Origin: Treponema sp. | Lineage (GTDB): Bacteria; Spirochaetota; Spirochaetia; Treponematales; Treponemataceae | Direction of reading: 5' to 3' | Assembly: GCA_016282835.1 (NCBI GenBank) | Contig: JAEELR010000217.1 | Coordinates: forward strand, 1 to 34,116 | DNA: 34,116 bases | Part shown: positions 10,376 through 33,987 of the stretch, piece by piece | Position numbering within the stretch: the stretch's first letter is position 1 | Layout of the letters: each line of letters begins with the position of its first letter | The notes under the pieces: generated by a model | Told to the model about the DNA's origin: nothing | Seen by the model: only the letters and a program-made list of their open reading frames with translations | The model's database searches: none | Made by a program: the position numbers and the translations under genes

Positions 10376-11338
10376 TTATCTTTCTTTCCTTTCACTAATT
10401 CCTGCCGAAAGCTTTTCACTAAACTGAGATAAAATAATAGCACAGAACATAATCACACAACCGGTTAATTCACGCACAGAAAGTTTTTCATGAATTATAA
10501 GAGCCCCGGATATTGCTGCAAAAACAGATTCCATACACATAAGTAAAGACGCAATAGATGCCTCACAATATTTCTGTCCTACAACCTGCATTGTGTACGC
10601 AAAGCCGCAGCTCATTATTCCTGAATACAGAATCGGAAAGAGCGCTTTTTTTATTCCGCTGATTTCAGGCTTCTCAAAAATGAACATCAGAATTGTAGAA
10701 ATAAGACCTGCAGTAAAGAACTGTACACAGGAAAGCTTTATTCCGTCACATTCAGGAGCAAATTTTTCTATAAATAAAATCTGGAAGGAAAAAAAGATTG
10801 AACAGATAAATGCAAGAATGTCACCCGAATTTATTTTTCCAAATTGATTACTTTTAAAGCACAAAAAATACAAACCAACGAATCCAATAAAGATACAAAT
10901 CCAGGTCAGCAAAGAAATTCTTTTTCTAAAAAATAAAAGTCCAAACAGAGGAACAAAAAACATATACATTGCAGTAATAAATGCAATTTTCCCGGAAGTT
11001 GCTCCCGGCCTGTAAAATGCAAATTGCTGAAAGTTTGTTGCAATACACAAAAGGACTCCAATCAATACACCACATTTTACAGTTTTCAAGTCCATCTTTT
11101 TTCTTAAGGCTAACTGGCTGTCAGTCATTTTTCTGGCAGTAATTTTATCTTTAATAAAAATAAACGGCATCAAAAAGAATGAACCGATTAGAGTTCTGAT
11201 TCCCATAAAAGTAAACGCTTCTACAGATTCACTTCCAACACTTTGAGAAACAAATGAGGTTCCCCAGATTATTGCCGTAAGCAAAAGCATTATTACGCCC
11301 TTGAATTGAGTTTTTGTTTTTCCATTAGTTTCAGTCAT
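10376..11338 (-). CDS. EamA/DMT-superfamily permease
   Basis: A 320-residue inner-membrane protein with about ten transmembrane helices arranged as two EamA repeats. The first repeat opens GVIMLLLTAIIWGTSFVSQS, and the second starts around GDILAFICSIFFSFQILF and contains ISGALIIHEKLSVRELTG, typical of the family. Members export metabolites such as amino acids or nucleobases; the substrate is not predictable. No Shine-Dalgarno sequence precedes the ATG. Instead TTGAAC-N17-TATTAT ends six bases from it, placing the expected transcription start on the A of the start codon, so the mRNA is predicted to be leaderless. It converges on the OMP gene and diverges from the pnt operon. Confidence 0.88.
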   Translation of the reverse strand: MTETNGKTKTQFKGVIMLLLTAIIWGTSFVSQSVGSESVEAFTFMGIRTLIGSFFLMPFIFIKDKITARKMTDSQLALRKKMDLKTVKCGVLIGVLLCIATNFQQFAFYRPGATSGKIAFITAMYMFFVPLFGLLFFRKRISLLTWICIFIGFVGLYFLCFKSNQFGKINSGDILAFICSIFFSFQILFIEKFAPECDGIKLSCVQFFTAGLISTILMFIFEKPEISGIKKALFPILYSGIMSCGFAYTMQVVGQKYCEASIASLLMCMESVFAAISGALIIHEKLSVRELTGCVIMFCAIILSQFSEKLSAGISERKER

Positions 11339-23040: not shown

Positions 23041-25284
23041 TTAATCCCAACGAAGTCCAACATTAACTCCTAAAGAAACATATGGATCCAGTTCCTGAAG
23101 TATATTGTATCTGAATTCAAGACCAATCGTATAAGAATCAGAACTTATATAATCAATTCCTCCAATAAATTTTAATGTTAAAAATGAATGTAATGATTCA
23201 TCGGTTTCAACATCCTTAAGGGCCCCTACACCCAATCCAAGTCCTGCATAAGGCATGAAAGAATTAAATCTTGCAGAAAAACCTCCTAAAATGGCATAAT
23301 CCATATAAAAAATGTCATTAGCCATTAGAGAATAATTAGCTTCCAAACCCATCCAGCTATTGTTATTACAGCCACAACAAGCATACGGAGACTGAATATC
23401 AACCTGAATGTTTAACATACAGCCATTCAGCAAGCCGGCATTTTCACCAACACCATCAAACCCAGCAAGACCACAGAAAAGTCCCTGTCGGCCACCATGA
23501 CTCTTAGCATATAATTTCTTTTCTGCTGCAAGCTTTTGTTTTACATCACTATTACCTGTAGAACTATTTGAATTATTTTTTGTCTGAGATGCATTTGTAT
23601 TTTTATTATCAGTCTTAGAGAAGTCACTTAATCTGTATTCAAAAAGCATGCTTCTATCTTCAGTTTTATGAATTCTAAAATAAACCGGTGAAACATAATA
23701 TTTATCGAAGGTTTCTATGTATTTAACTTTTAAAGCAATTTCTGAATAAAGATATGGAACGCTTGTCCTGAAATATAAATCGGCAGCTTCAACAAGCTTT
23801 TGATACTCAGTATATTCTTCCAGAGTAGAAGCTTTTGTTGCTGGTAACTTACCTGTCATTTCTTTGTAAGTTATCAAAGCTTTTGGAAGTACAACAGCTG
23901 AGGTGTCAGTCTTAGGAATTGAGGACATATTAAGGCGTGAATTAACAGCCCAGCTGTTTTTTTCTCCATCGAATTCATCCACAATAAGACTTAAAAAATC
24001 ATCGTTTTTATCAATTGAACGGAAAACATAAGTTGTCTTTTCCATTTCGCTTACATTTGATTTGATTTGTGCTTTATATGAATCTAAATCACTTTTAACG
24101 CTTTCATTAAAATTTGTCTGGGCTTTTTTCTTTGCACTTTCATACTTTGACTTTACTGCATCAATTTTCTGCTGTCTGAAATGTAAGGCTGTCTGTGTAG
24201 GATTCCCATTTGCATCTGTGTCAGCCTTTGTCCAGCCCTGAGCCCTGATCTGCTTTATTTCTTCTTCACATTTTTGATCAAAATAAGAATTGCTTTCGTT
24301 TGTAATCTGATCCAGCTGTTTCTTTAACTGATTATAGTTTGAAAGATCATTTTCTATTAATTCAATTCGTTTTTTAAGTGACAGTTTATTTGTTGCTTCC
24401 TTAAGGATTTCCTGCTTCTTCTTTTCAAGCTCACCCATTTTATTCATGAGTTCTGCCTGACGGCTGGAAGCTAACTGTTCAAGCTCCTGTTTTTTCTTTG
24501 CTTCATTTGCTTCATCTTCTTTCTGTCGGCGCAAATTTTCTTCAGCCTGCTGCTTTCGTTTTTCAAGCATTTCAATTTTTAACTTTAAGGCCTGCGATTT
24601 ATTCTCTGATTCAATTTTATCATCTAAGGACTGTGAGCTTTTCTTAATGCTGTTCAATTCTTTTTCAGCCTGGGCAATCTGCTTAGCATAATCCTGCACA
24701 TATTTTGTGTAGTTTTCAGAACTTGTTCCGCTGTGCAAAAGCTGATTTACGACATTAACCTCAAGCGGCTGTATATAACCTCTCTGCTGCAGGCTGAGTA
24801 AAACTTCATAAGCTAAAGAGTCAATTACTTCATCGCTGAAATTATTTATCTGTAAAGAAGAAGTTGCCTTTTTTGAAATCAAATTCATCTTTTCTATTTC
24901 AGAAACTTCACAGCTAAACTGATACAAACCATTCTTTACCGAAAGCATTTTTAACAGCATAGAAAGCTTAGCCTGACTTCCTTTATCGCTGGCGTAAGCT
25001 GCACTGTCACTTCCCATTCCGCTTCCTGCATCAATCTGAGACTGCTTCTGAATTGCACGCAAGGTTGAATCAACACTGGAATTTCTAACACTTATTTGAT
25101 TTACAATAAGCATATCCTGTAAAAAGCGGTTATATGCAGTTGATGTATAACTTTTAGCATTACTATCCAATGAAGCTGTTGAAACAGAGTCCAGTTCTAC
25201 TTTTATGATTAATTCTTCTGCAAAAGTGAATGCGCTGAATATTAATAAAAGTATGCAAAATAATACTCTTTTAAGGTTGAACAT
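23041..25284 (-). CDS. Envelope protein: CsgG/LpoB-like domain, coiled coil, C-terminal beta-barrel
   Basis: 747 residues from the ATG at 25284 (GGAG 7 nt upstream). A signal peptide (1-22, ending FTFA) is followed by a periplasmic domain to about 195 that resembles CsgG or LpoB-type assembly lipoproteins without the lipid cysteine. A highly charged coiled coil (about 200-330, KLKIEMLEKRKQQAEENLRR) and a second helical region lead to a linker rich in N, S, T and K (around 565-590). Residues about 590-747 look like an OmpA-sized barrel, with alternating strands such as AILGGFSARFN and the ending GVNVGLRWD. I infer an outer-membrane protein with a long periplasmic arm. An in-frame ATG at 25305 coincides with the predicted transcription start and is an alternative start. 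Confidence 0.75.
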   Translation of the reverse strand: MFNLKRVLFCILLLIFSAFTFAEELIIKVELDSVSTASLDSNAKSYTSTAYNRFLQDMLIVNQISVRNSSVDSTLRAIQKQSQIDAGSGMGSDSAAYASDKGSQAKLSMLLKMLSVKNGLYQFSCEVSEIEKMNLISKKATSSLQINNFSDEVIDSLAYEVLLSLQQRGYIQPLEVNVVNQLLHSGTSSENYTKYVQDYAKQIAQAEKELNSIKKSSQSLDDKIESENKSQALKLKIEMLEKRKQQAEENLRRQKEDEANEAKKKQELEQLASSRQAELMNKMGELEKKKQEILKEATNKLSLKKRIELIENDLSNYNQLKKQLDQITNESNSYFDQKCEEEIKQIRAQGWTKADTDANGNPTQTALHFRQQKIDAVKSKYESAKKKAQTNFNESVKSDLDSYKAQIKSNVSEMEKTTYVFRSIDKNDDFLSLIVDEFDGEKNSWAVNSRLNMSSIPKTDTSAVVLPKALITYKEMTGKLPATKASTLEEYTEYQKLVEAADLYFRTSVPYLYSEIALKVKYIETFDKYYVSPVYFRIHKTEDRSMLFEYRLSDFSKTDNKNTNASQTKNNSNSSTGNSDVKQKLAAEKKLYAKSHGGRQGLFCGLAGFDGVGENAGLLNGCMLNIQVDIQSPYACCGCNNNSWMGLEANYSLMANDIFYMDYAILGGFSARFNSFMPYAGLGLGVGALKDVETDESLHSFLTLKFIGGIDYISSDSYTIGLEFRYNILQELDPYVSLGVNVGLRWD

Positions 25285-25311
25285 AAACTCTCTCCTATCC
25301 TTCATTCTTTA

Positions 25312-29065: not shown

Positions 29066-32000
29066 TTAAGCAAAGTAATTTACACCGGCTTTGAAAATAT
29101 TCTGGCAAGAGCTTTCATTTTTATCGAAGCAAATGTTCTTAATCAAATCAACACTCTTTCCGTTTCCATCAGTTCCAATTGTTCGCTCGTTGTGTCCCAT
29201 CTTACCCAAAACGTGACCGTCAGGACTTGTAAGACCTTCTATAGCAAACAAACTTCCATTAGGATTATCCGGTTCTGAAATCGAAGGAACTCCATTTTCA
29301 TCAACGTACTGTGTAAATACCTGACCCTTTTCAAAAAGCTTTTGTGCAAGCTCCTGGCTTATAACAATTCTGCCTTCACCGTGGCTGATTGGAATAAGAT
29401 GAACTTTAGAATCAAGCACAGAAGAAGACAATGCCCATGGACTCAAAGCACTTACCATTCTTGTCCTTACAACGCGGCTAATGTGTCTTCCGATTTTATT
29501 GAAGGTCAAAGTTGGTGTTTCACTTGTCATTGGTCTGATTTCACCATAAGGTACAAGACCCGTTTTAATAAGTGCCTGGAAGCCATTACAAATTCCCAAA
29601 ACCAAACCGTCGCGTTTTTTAAGGAGATTCATAATGCTGTCTGCAATTCTATTTTCACGGATTACATTTGCAATATATTTTCCAGAGCCGTCCGGTTCAT
29701 CGCCTGAACTGAAGCCGCCTGCAAATGCTAAAATCTGTGCGTTATCAATTTCACTCTTTAACTGATTCAATGAAGCTGTAAGTTCAGCCGCAGTTCTGTT
29801 TCTGAATACCATAACTTTTGTTTCTGCACCGTTTATGTTGAATGCACGGGCCATATCGTATTCGCAGTTAGTTCCAGGGAAAACAGGAATAATTACTTTT
29901 GGTTTAGCCTTGTTAACAATAGATTCAAACTTTCCTGTCTTGCTTTCTTCTCTTGCCTTTTGCAATGAGCTGTGTTCATTTAATGCATATTCTGGAAGAG
30001 CAGGCTGTTCTTTAGCACCAGAAACCGGAGGGAATACTTTTGAAAGCTTTTCTTCCCAAACTGAATCGATTTCACTCAAATCAATTTCTACATCTTCAAT
30101 TTTTATTTTTGCTTCATTAAGTGTTGTACCAATCTTTGAAACTGTGCCGCCTGCAAAATCACTTTCGCTTTCCAAATCAACTTTTGTTTCAACAATAATT
30201 GAACCGTAAAGAGGAGTAAATAAATCTTCTACACTAGCATCAAGTGAAAGAGCCTGCTTTGTTGCACTTACAGGAATATCTTCTATCTGCAAGCCGATTC
30301 TGTTTCCTAGTGCCATTTTACTTACAGCTTCAGCAATACCTCCTGCACAAACCGGATACATGCTGGAAATTTTTCCCGATGCATTTAATTTATACAAAGC
30401 CTTTGCATTCTTTTTGAAAACTTCAAAATCCGGAGCGAGTTCCTTTGTATATGGAACCTGAACAATATAAACTGAACTGCCGGCTTCCTTGAATGAACCA
30501 GAAGTAACATTCTTTACATCCTCAGTATCAACAGCAAAAGAAACCAATGTATGAGGAACATTTAAATTCTCGAAGGTACCAGACATAGAATCCTTACCGC
30601 CAATAGAACCTGTTCCCATAGAAAGCTGTGCATCAATAGAACCTAATAAAGCTGCTGCAGGATATCCCCATGCTTTTTCATTTACTGTGCGGCCAAAGAA
30701 TTCCTGGAAAGTAAGACGGGCATTTTCTGCCTTACCGCCGATACAAACCAGCTTTGTCAATGATGAAAGAACAGCAACCTGGCTTCCGTGCCATGCAGAC
30801 CATTGTGAAACTCGTGGATCAAAACCGAAAGTCATAAGGCTGACAGTAGAAGTTTCACGCGGACTTACAACAGGAATTTTTGCTGCCATACCTGCTTCTG
30901 GAGTTCCCTGATATTTTCCACCAAAAGGCATTAAAACAGAGCTGGCACCAATTGAGCCGTCAAATCTTTCTCCCAGACCACGCTGAGAACAGCAGGCTAA
31001 ATCGCTCATGTTTTCAAGCCATGCAGACTTTATATCAGAACCGCTTGATGAGTCTGAATCAGAATCGCTTAAAGCTTTTGCAACTGAATCCAGAGGCTTA
31101 ACTAATGGAGATTCAGATTGAGCAGAAGGAGATTCAATTAAAGCAACTGCATGATGTTCAGCACCGGCAGCATCAAGGAATGAACGGTCAAGGTTTACAA
31201 TTGTCTTACCGCGCCATTTCATTACAAGCTTATTAGTATTTGTAACTGTTGCAACAACAACAGCATTTAAATTTTCTTCATTACAGAGTTCAATAAATTT
31301 CTTCTCATCAGATGAACGGATTACAACAGCCATTCTTTCCTGACTTTCAGAAATTGCAAGCTCAGTACCGTCGAGGCCTTCATATTTTTTCGGTACATTA
31401 TCAAGATTAATATCAAGACCAGGAGCAAGTTCACCAACAGCAACACTCACACCACCAGCACCAAAGTCATTTGAACGGCGGATCATTTTACAAACTTCCT
31501 GATTCCTGAAGAGGCGCTGGATTTTTCTTTCTTCTACAGCATTTCCTTTTTGAACTTCAGCAGCAGCAGTTGTAACAGATTTAACATCATGAATTTTTGA
31601 AGAACCTGTAGCACCACCAATTCCGTCGCGGCCTGTTCCACCACCAATCAAAACTACGATATCACCTTCTTCCGGCTCTTCACGAACAACCTGCGAACAA
31701 GGAGCAGCTGCAATAACGGCACCAAGTTCCATGCGCTTTGCAACATAACCAGGATGATAGATTTCTGTAACCTGTCCTGTAGTTAAACCAATCTGATTAC
31801 CATAAGAACTGAATCCCTGTGCAGCTTCGCGGGTAAGCTTCATCTGAGGGAGTTTTCCTTTAAGAGTTTCGCTTAAAGGAACAGTAGGATCACTTGCTCC
31901 TGTAACACGCATTGCCTGATATACCCATGAGCGGCCGGAAAGAGGATCACGAATAGCGCGTCCTATCCAAGTAGCAGCACCACCAAAAGGTTCTATTTCT

Positions 32001-33034
32001 GTAGGGTGATTGTGTGTTTCATTCTTAAACTGCAAGAGCCAGCGTTCAGTTTCGTCCGAAGGATTTCCGTCTTTATCTGTAGTGTAATGAACATCAATAT
32101 AAATAGAGCAGGCATTTATTTCAGCACTCACTTCAAGGTCATCAAGCTTACCGTGCTTTCTCAAATACTTTGCACCGATACAAGCCATGTCCATTAAAGT
32201 TACGCGCTTATCTTTTCTTCCGGCATATAAATCAGTTCGTAAAGTTGTATAGTTTTCAAGAGACTTTTTGAACAGTGATGAATATGGACCGTCTTCAATT
32301 TTAATTTCATCGAGATTAGTAAGGAAAGTTGTGTGGCGGCAGTGGTCAGACCAATAGGTATCCAGAACACGAATCTCAGTTAAAGTTGGATCACGCTTAA
32401 TGGAAATAAAATAATCCTGCAGGAATTTAATGTCAGCGAAATCCATGGCAAGACCAAGCTGCTTTCTGTAGCTTTCAAGTTTTTCTTCATCGAGAGAAAT
32501 AAAACCTTCTACAGTCGGAATATCACCAGGCTGTACAACTTCCATTTGCAAAGTCTCTGGCATAGATGAATCTGTCAAACGCGAATCAACAGGATTAATA
32601 AGATAATTCTGAATCTTTAAAACATCATCAGAAGAAATTTTTCCGGAAAGAAGAACAATTTTTGCACATCGTACCTTTGGAGGCTCTGTTCCAACCTTAG
32701 CAAAAGAAGCCATTCCCTCTCGCAAAAGTGAAAGACACTGCTCTGCACTATCTGCTCTCTGATCATACTGTCCAGGCAAATACTCCCAAATAATTTGTGT
32801 AACATCTTCAGTTACTTCAAGCGAATCGTAAAAAACATAATCACTTTGAGGCTCAGAAAAAATTCTTGTAGCACTTTCTTTAAATACAGCCTCAGAAACA
32901 TTTTCCACATCGTAGCGATTTAAATATCTAACACCGCTAACTCCACCAATTCCTAAAAAACCTGTAATCTCGGAATAAATCCGTGCAGCTTCATTTTGAA
33001 AGCCGTCTTTTCTTTCTATATAGATACGATACAT
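29066..33034 (-). CDS. purL: Phosphoribosylformylglycinamidine synthase (FGAM synthase), single-chain
   Basis: Fourth step of de novo purine synthesis: FGAR, glutamine and ATP give FGAM. 1322 residues contain, in order, a PurS-like N-terminal region, a linker with TLTEIRVLDTYWSDHCRHTTF, two AIRS-like ATP-grasp halves (ETHNHPTEIEPFGGAATWIGR; DSMSGTFENLNVPHT region) and a class I glutaminase domain with PGTNCEYDMARAF, FAGGFSSGDEP, the nucleophile C1149 in LGICNGFQ and HGEGR. The length and motif order fit the long-chain type known in clostridia and treponemes. A low-complexity S/D run (DSDSDSSSGSD) joins the two halves. No ribosome-binding site is present and the -10 box ends six bases before the ATG, so the mRNA is probably leaderless. 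It is followed by a terminator. Confidence 0.96.
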   Translation of the reverse strand: MYRIYIERKDGFQNEAARIYSEITGFLGIGGVSGVRYLNRYDVENVSEAVFKESATRIFSEPQSDYVFYDSLEVTEDVTQIIWEYLPGQYDQRADSAEQCLSLLREGMASFAKVGTEPPKVRCAKIVLLSGKISSDDVLKIQNYLINPVDSRLTDSSMPETLQMEVVQPGDIPTVEGFISLDEEKLESYRKQLGLAMDFADIKFLQDYFISIKRDPTLTEIRVLDTYWSDHCRHTTFLTNLDEIKIEDGPYSSLFKKSLENYTTLRTDLYAGRKDKRVTLMDMACIGAKYLRKHGKLDDLEVSAEINACSIYIDVHYTTDKDGNPSDETERWLLQFKNETHNHPTEIEPFGGAATWIGRAIRDPLSGRSWVYQAMRVTGASDPTVPLSETLKGKLPQMKLTREAAQGFSSYGNQIGLTTGQVTEIYHPGYVAKRMELGAVIAAAPCSQVVREEPEEGDIVVLIGGGTGRDGIGGATGSSKIHDVKSVTTAAAEVQKGNAVEERKIQRLFRNQEVCKMIRRSNDFGAGGVSVAVGELAPGLDINLDNVPKKYEGLDGTELAISESQERMAVVIRSSDEKKFIELCNEENLNAVVVATVTNTNKLVMKWRGKTIVNLDRSFLDAAGAEHHAVALIESPSAQSESPLVKPLDSVAKALSDSDSDSSSGSDIKSAWLENMSDLACCSQRGLGERFDGSIGASSVLMPFGGKYQGTPEAGMAAKIPVVSPRETSTVSLMTFGFDPRVSQWSAWHGSQVAVLSSLTKLVCIGGKAENARLTFQEFFGRTVNEKAWGYPAAALLGSIDAQLSMGTGSIGGKDSMSGTFENLNVPHTLVSFAVDTEDVKNVTSGSFKEAGSSVYIVQVPYTKELAPDFEVFKKNAKALYKLNASGKISSMYPVCAGGIAEAVSKMALGNRIGLQIEDIPVSATKQALSLDASVEDLFTPLYGSIIVETKVDLESESDFAGGTVSKIGTTLNEAKIKIEDVEIDLSEIDSVWEEKLSKVFPPVSGAKEQPALPEYALNEHSSLQKAREESKTGKFESIVNKAKPKVIIPVFPGTNCEYDMARAFNINGAETKVMVFRNRTAAELTASLNQLKSEIDNAQILAFAGGFSSGDEPDGSGKYIANVIRENRIADSIMNLLKKRDGLVLGICNGFQALIKTGLVPYGEIRPMTSETPTLTFNKIGRHISRVVRTRMVSALSPWALSSSVLDSKVHLIPISHGEGRIVISQELAQKLFEKGQVFTQYVDENGVPSISEPDNPNGSLFAIEGLTSPDGHVLGKMGHNERTIGTDGNGKSVDLIKNICFDKNESSCQNIFKAGVNYFA

Positions 33035-33040
33035 AAGGAG

Positions 33041-33069
33041 ATTATAGAAAAAAAAAGATTGATTTTCAA
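33041..33069 (-). promoter_or_regulatory. Leaderless promoter of purL
   Basis: Minus strand TTGAAA (33064-33069), 17 bp, perfect TATAAT (33041-33046), then CTCCTT and ATG. The expected start is 33034, the A of the start codon. CTCC just before the ATG is the opposite of a ribosome-binding site. Confidence 0.7.
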
Positions 33070-33088
33070 TGTGATATTTTTTTATACT
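33059..33088 (+). promoter_or_regulatory. Nearly leaderless promoter of the TatD-family gene
   Basis: TTGATT (33059-33064), 18 bp, TATACT (33083-33088). The start is predicted near 33095, two bases before the ATG. Its -35 box touches that of the divergent purL promoter at base 33064, so the two may compete for polymerase. Confidence 0.55.
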
Positions 33089-33096
33089 TTCAAATT

Positions 33097-33987
33097 ATGT
33101 ACACAGATACGCATTTTCATTTTCACTTAATAGCAGAAGAAAAAGCAATAAACGAAGCTGCAAAAATCTTATGCCGGATGAAAGAAAACAAAACTTATTT
33201 TGGAATGGACATTGGAACTGAATGCAACGATTTATGCAGAAGGGCAAATCAATTTGAAAAGATTATAAACACAATCGAAGATGCACAAACTCAAAATGAT
33301 ATAAAAAGCTTTTTGTATTTCAGTGCAGGAATCTGGCCCTCAAAAGAAGCAATCATAAACAGATTTGAACAGATAAAAATCCTTAAGGCAGAAATTGACG
33401 CCTTTAGAAAAACTTCTGTCTTCAAAGAAAAGCTCTGTGCACTGGGTGAAGGCGGAATTGACAGGCACTGGAACACAAACGGCACAGACGAAAGAAATGA
33501 AAATGATTTTACAAAAAGCATCTGTGAACAGGAAGAAGAATTATTTTACCTGCAGCTTGAACTTGCAAAAGAGATGAAGCTCCCGTACATAGTTCATTCA
33601 AGGGACGGCTTTGAAGCAACTTATAATGTTATAAAGCAGTCAAATAACTCCAGCGGTGTCCTGCACTGCTTTTCATACGGAATAGAGGAAGCAAAAAAAA
33701 TCCTGGACCTTAACTGGTACATCAGTATTTCAGGAGCAATAACCTATACAAAAAAATCAAAACTTGAAGACACAAAGAAACTTTTGAAATACATACCGGC
33801 CGACAGACTTTTACTTGAAACTGACTCCCCTTATCTTTCGCCGGTTCCGCTACGGGGACAAATGAACAATCCGCTGAACGTTAAGCACACCTATGAATTT
33901 GTTTCTCAAATGAGGGAATGTACTTTAGAAGAATTAAATTTTATTGTTGATGAAAACTGCAGTGACTTATTTATAAACAGAAAGTAA
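33097..33987 (+). CDS. TatD-family metal-dependent hydrolase
   Basis: 296 residues with the metal ligands of the amidohydrolase fold: H6 and H8 (DTHFHFH), E118 (GEGGID), H167 (VHSRD), H190 (HCFS) and D243 (ETDSPYLSP). TatD proteins are 3'-5' exonucleases or D-aminoacyl-tRNA-deacylase-like enzymes involved in DNA repair or RNA turnover; the exact role here is unknown. Between residues 100 and 150 it has a longer insert (FRKTSVFKEK, NTNGTDERNENDF) than compact TatD enzymes. No ribosome-binding site precedes the ATG and a -10 box ends 8 nt upstream. It ends 1 bp from the stop of a convergent partial gene. Confidence 0.9.
   Translation: MYTDTHFHFHLIAEEKAINEAAKILCRMKENKTYFGMDIGTECNDLCRRANQFEKIINTIEDAQTQNDIKSFLYFSAGIWPSKEAIINRFEQIKILKAEIDAFRKTSVFKEKLCALGEGGIDRHWNTNGTDERNENDFTKSICEQEEELFYLQLELAKEMKLPYIVHSRDGFEATYNVIKQSNNSSGVLHCFSYGIEEAKKILDLNWYISISGAITYTKKSKLEDTKKLLKYIPADRLLLETDSPYLSPVPLRGQMNNPLNVKHTYEFVSQMRECTLEELNFIVDENCSDLFINRK

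Follow-up and report, generated by a model that had tools for sequence, protein, structure and literature searches.

Probable divergent promoters and predicted leaderless transcripts of purL and tatD in a gut-type Treponema

The purL–tatD region

The stretch of DNA analyzed here, referred to in the following as the window, is 34,116 nt long and comes from a gut/rumen-type Treponema. It carries two divergent genes separated by a 62-bp gap: purL, encoding a single-chain phosphoribosylformylglycinamidine synthase, and a gene for a TatD-family metal-dependent hydrolase, here called tatD (Table 1). The product of the latter scored under the curated cut-off of TIGR00010, which makes "TatD-family" the safe name. 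No in-frame ATG, GTG or TTG lies upstream of the start given in Table 1 for either ORF. The N-terminus of PurL is kept among relatives, as seen in the locus comparison, and the TatD HxH motif begins only a few codons past the tatD ATG, making a start further downstream unlikely. An Rfam scan of the window gave no match, and the window thus has no known riboswitch leader.

Table 1. Genes and promoter elements at the purL–tatD locus (window coordinates).
Feature	Position	Strand	Remarks
purL, single-chain phosphoribosylformylglycinamidine synthase	29066..33034	-	ATG at 33034; TIGR01857 1647.7 bits (cut-off 1057)
purL -10 box TATAAT	33046-33041	-	6 nt before ATG; same position in 66/70 distinct upstreams
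purL -35 box TTGAAA	33069-33064	-	conserved column block at -35..-30 from ATG
11-bp dyad TTGATTTTCAA	33059..33069		made by the two overlapping -35 boxes
tatD -35 box TTGATT	33059-33064	+	overlaps the purL -35 box at base 33064
tatD -10 box TATACT	33083-33088	+	8 nt before ATG; TANNNT at 6-8 nt in 28/45 orthologue upstreams
tatD, TatD-family metal-dependent hydrolase	33097..33987	+	ATG at 33097; Pfam PF01026 (TatD_DNase) 176.6 bits

On the minus strand, TTGAAA is followed by a 17-nt spacer, TATAAT, 6 nt (CTCCTT) and the purL ATG, with the two boxes matching the consensus at 11 of 12 bases. The corresponding order on the plus strand is TTGATT, an 18-nt spacer, TATACT, 8 nt (TTCAAATT) and the tatD ATG, where the boxes match at only 9 of 12 bases. 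Both layouts had been put forward in an earlier, sequence-only reading of this DNA, and when the sequence was read again, all boxes and spacings were found to be exact. The same reading had claimed that neither gene has a Shine-Dalgarno sequence; indeed, no Shine-Dalgarno core precedes either ATG in the window, as is characteristic of bacterial leaderless genes. AAGGAG occurs on the plus strand at 33036-33041, where no start codon follows at Shine-Dalgarno spacing; complementary to the CTCCTT proximal to the predicted purL transcription start, it is probably there by chance.

In the 1.3 kb around this region, matching to the promoter consensus gave 5 promoter-like sites, compared with 4.7 expected from shuffled sequences. 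Given this result and their 9/12 match, the tatD boxes taken alone are at chance level. Once orthologues are compared, both promoters exceed chance, and purL does so by far.

Upstream sequences of purL and tatD in relatives

A search of the genome collection yielded numerous purL loci from Treponema, with identities of about 60-80%. Alignment of 40 purL upstreams revealed conserved columns at -35..-30 and -12..-7 from the ATG, corresponding to the -35 box and the -10 box, respectively; the stretch between them is T-rich. The set was then enlarged with more genomes to 70 distinct upstreams from the Treponema group, a count in which, as in that of the tatD orthologues below, related species enter as separate. 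TANNNT ends exactly 6 nt before the purL ATG in 66 of these and 6-8 nt before it in 69, and a Shine-Dalgarno core was found in none of the 70. The neighbors upstream of purL vary in strand, distance and identity among the relatives, so that the promoter is tied to the ATG in changing surroundings. When a rigid 36-nt model of the purL upstream was built from 38 other species, excluding the window, the purL ATG came first out of every position on the two strands of the window, scoring 17.3 against 12.9 for the runner-up.

These data strongly support a leaderless purL mRNA, with its start predicted on A33034. The -10 box ends 6 nt before the start codon, within the distance of about 6-7 nt found in leaderless genes. 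The earlier proposal that +1 falls on the purL start codon thereby gains strong support from conservation. Within this Treponema group, the leaderless-type layout of purL is inherited. Clostridial purL orthologues mostly have Shine-Dalgarno-like sequences instead, and such sequences also precede purL in Brachyspira-like and several other outgroup spirochaetes. By-eye reading found -35/-10-like sequences near the purL start in a few outgroup spirochaetes; three loci from the same class (L147, L149 and L225) have an apparent TTGACA-17-AATNAT-5-ATG, which hints that leaderless purL may predate the genus. It is conceivable, if rather doubtful, that purL is under lasting selection for a leaderless mRNA in this group. 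As a speculative reason, transcription starting on the A of AUG might link purine synthesis with nucleotide pools or with the growth state; an equally tentative alternative is that 70S-type initiation would do so.

The rigid purL model placed tatD at rank 1607, because the spacer and gap of tatD differ by 1 and 2 nt, respectively, from those of purL. A spacing-flexible model was adopted for tatD after this failure, and ranked the window tatD as number 6 of 1100 ATGs. In a sample of the window's own genome, 25 of 355 gene starts reached the tatD score, while a 20-nt shift, used as a control, gave 5. Among 45 distinct tatD orthologue upstreams, TANNNT is present 6-8 nt before the ATG in 28 and absent there in 17, while 6 have a 4-nt Shine-Dalgarno core. 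A -10 box near the start codon of tatD thus appears to be common in the Treponema group.

These results support, more weakly than for purL, a tatD mRNA that would be leaderless or near-leaderless, with an expected leader of 0-3 nt. The sequence-only reading had proposed a leader of about 2 nt; its near-leaderless character was upheld with this weaker support (28/45; rank 6 of 1100), but the exact length was not, as the preference for purines points to A33094 (3-nt leader) or A33097 (no leader). Unlikely, though the strongest of the alternatives, is that purL is leaderless and tatD is not, the tatD boxes being a chance match and transcription starting elsewhere, such as at a site antisense to purL in its 5' part. 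The 9/12 consensus match, the TTGATT -35 box and the 8-nt gap, longer than the usual 6-7 nt, would fit such a scenario, as would the 17 orthologues lacking a box at 6-8 nt and the 6 with a Shine-Dalgarno core. However, the enrichment at 6-8 nt in orthologues and the rank of 6 among 1100 ATGs argue for a genuine promoter, and a leadered tatD transcript would have no Shine-Dalgarno sequence available to it.

A broader objection is that both genes have ordinary leaders, transcribed from promoters further upstream and translated by non-Shine-Dalgarno initiation (S1 protein, weak structure), and that the boxes near the start codons are AT-rich coincidences. The region is AT-rich, the tatD boxes alone do not exceed chance, and leadered genes without Shine-Dalgarno sequences do exist in bacteria (PMC5397173), but coincidence cannot account for purL -10 and -35 boxes held at a set distance from the start codon across 66 of 70 upstreams that have varied neighbors, and we consider this explanation improbable.

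The reading that we favor, and hold to be very probable, is that the 62-bp gap holds two back-to-back promoters of the sigma-70 type, which yield divergent leaderless or near-leaderless purL and tatD mRNAs. The -10 boxes are so near the start codons that transcription would begin on the ATG itself for purL (A33034) and 0-3 nt ahead of it for tatD, and ribosomes would presumably recognize the 5'-terminal AUG without a Shine-Dalgarno sequence.

The shared 62-bp region

Base 33064 belongs to both -35 boxes, reproducing an overlap pointed out in the sequence-only reading. The head-to-head joining of the purL and tatD promoters that produces this one-base overlap is, as far as seen, specific to this lineage. 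An FNR-type half-site was considered for the dyad TTGATTTTCAA and dropped: the dyad of an FNR-type site is 14 bp, whereas this one is 11 bp and is already explained by the two -35 boxes.

In the relatives' loci examined, some of them on contigs shorter than 2.5 kb, the 2.5 kb preceding purL contained no tatD, and none of the matches listed from 200 genus genomes spans the purL–tatD junction at the DNA level. In two loci, L015 and L032, purL forms divergent leaderless pairs with other partners. As far as seen, the purL–tatD pairing therefore appears lineage-specific, and since it is not conserved, nothing indicates selected joint control of the two genes.

The inferred purL and tatD starts are about 62 bp apart. 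From this geometry, with the -35 boxes overlapping, the region is unlikely to be occupied by two polymerases at once, in agreement with the earlier suggestion that only one can bind at a time; a putative effect of this on expression would probably depend on strong activity of one promoter or both. Five tested E. coli bidirectional promoters were reportedly too weak at the basal level for competition, and interference occurred once one direction was strongly activated (PMC12825309). That the -35 overlap is a selected switch, in which polymerase on one promoter silences the other and so couples purine synthesis to a TatD-family nuclease, is very hard to credit: the overlap and the short distance between the inferred starts would suit it, but the pairing is absent from the relatives examined, and the E. 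coli promoters reportedly show no competition at the basal level, only when one side is activated.

The bidirectional promoters of E. coli and Salmonella likewise have divergent starts on shared DNA, with one polymerase blocking the other (PMC12825309, PMC10268837). In that class, as described by Warman, starts are 7-25 bp apart and -10 elements overlap (PMC10268837), whereas purL and tatD overlap only at the -35 boxes and their inferred starts are much further apart, so that the likeness is an analogy only. The shared promoter region is a local arrangement, and it is the persistence of leaderless purL that may merit a second look, not the shared 62 bp.

Leaderless genes in Treponema and other bacteria

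Leaderless mRNAs are already known in spirochaetes, and purL/tatD is a well-supported further example. In bacterial leaderless genes, the -10 box lies about 12 bp before the start codon (PMC3160421; Deinococcus-Thermus -10 motif, PMC12340547), and TANNNT is likewise placed before purL, where transcription is predicted to start at the start codon as in those genes; a Shine-Dalgarno sequence is also lacking. Leaderless genes were predicted in 6 of 18 spirochaete genomes, with a mean of 3.9% where found (Zheng et al. 2011, PMC3160421). Compared with these minority predictions, purL keeps its layout through the whole Treponema group and has a clear -35 box. In another spirochaete, Leptospira interrogans, dRNA-seq revealed leaders shorter than 10 nt on about 440 mRNAs and placed many primary starts at a distance of 0-10 nt from the start codon; nucleotide metabolism was over-represented among leaderless mRNAs at 37 °C (PMC5243855). 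The starts were measured in that distant species, whereas those in Treponema are predicted. No paper on leaderless purL was found, judging from titles and abstracts.

When gene starts were first counted across the purL loci, purL itself supplied most of the 6-nt peak, and larger genome samples were therefore taken before making any genus-wide claim. The own-genome sample comprised about 534 kb as stretches, with genes called by a longest-ORF rule. Strong -10 boxes were found at 6 nt in 21 of 338 genes, against about 4 per offset elsewhere, and a Shine-Dalgarno core in 45% of genes; the relative G044 gave the same pattern for both. When a -35 box was also required, the count was 31 of 388 ORFs, compared with 5-11 at control offsets. 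We estimate that roughly 6% of the sampled genes look leaderless, a figure that is approximate because genes were called by the longest-ORF rule. Leaderless expression would thus be an ordinary minority mode in the window's genome, in line with the spirochaete predictions of 2011 and the Leptospira measurements, and the counts point to a steady one in gut Treponema. A biosynthetic gene such as purL can apparently keep a leaderless layout group-wide in genomes where Shine-Dalgarno initiation is common, and purL should be a good test gene for why leaderless mRNAs persist.

The exact leaderless-like layout is present in two further genes of the window, both on the minus strand. The gene at 23041-25305 has TTGAAA-17-TATATT-6-ATG, the window's second-best score under the purL model, and a probable membrane transporter gene at 10376-11338 has TTGAAC-17-TATTAT-6-ATG. 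In the relative G044, three tandem similar ORFs (MQEIRKMPIG...; L194:2070-6980, minus strand) each have, 6 nt ahead of their ATG, a TATAAAAT-type box.
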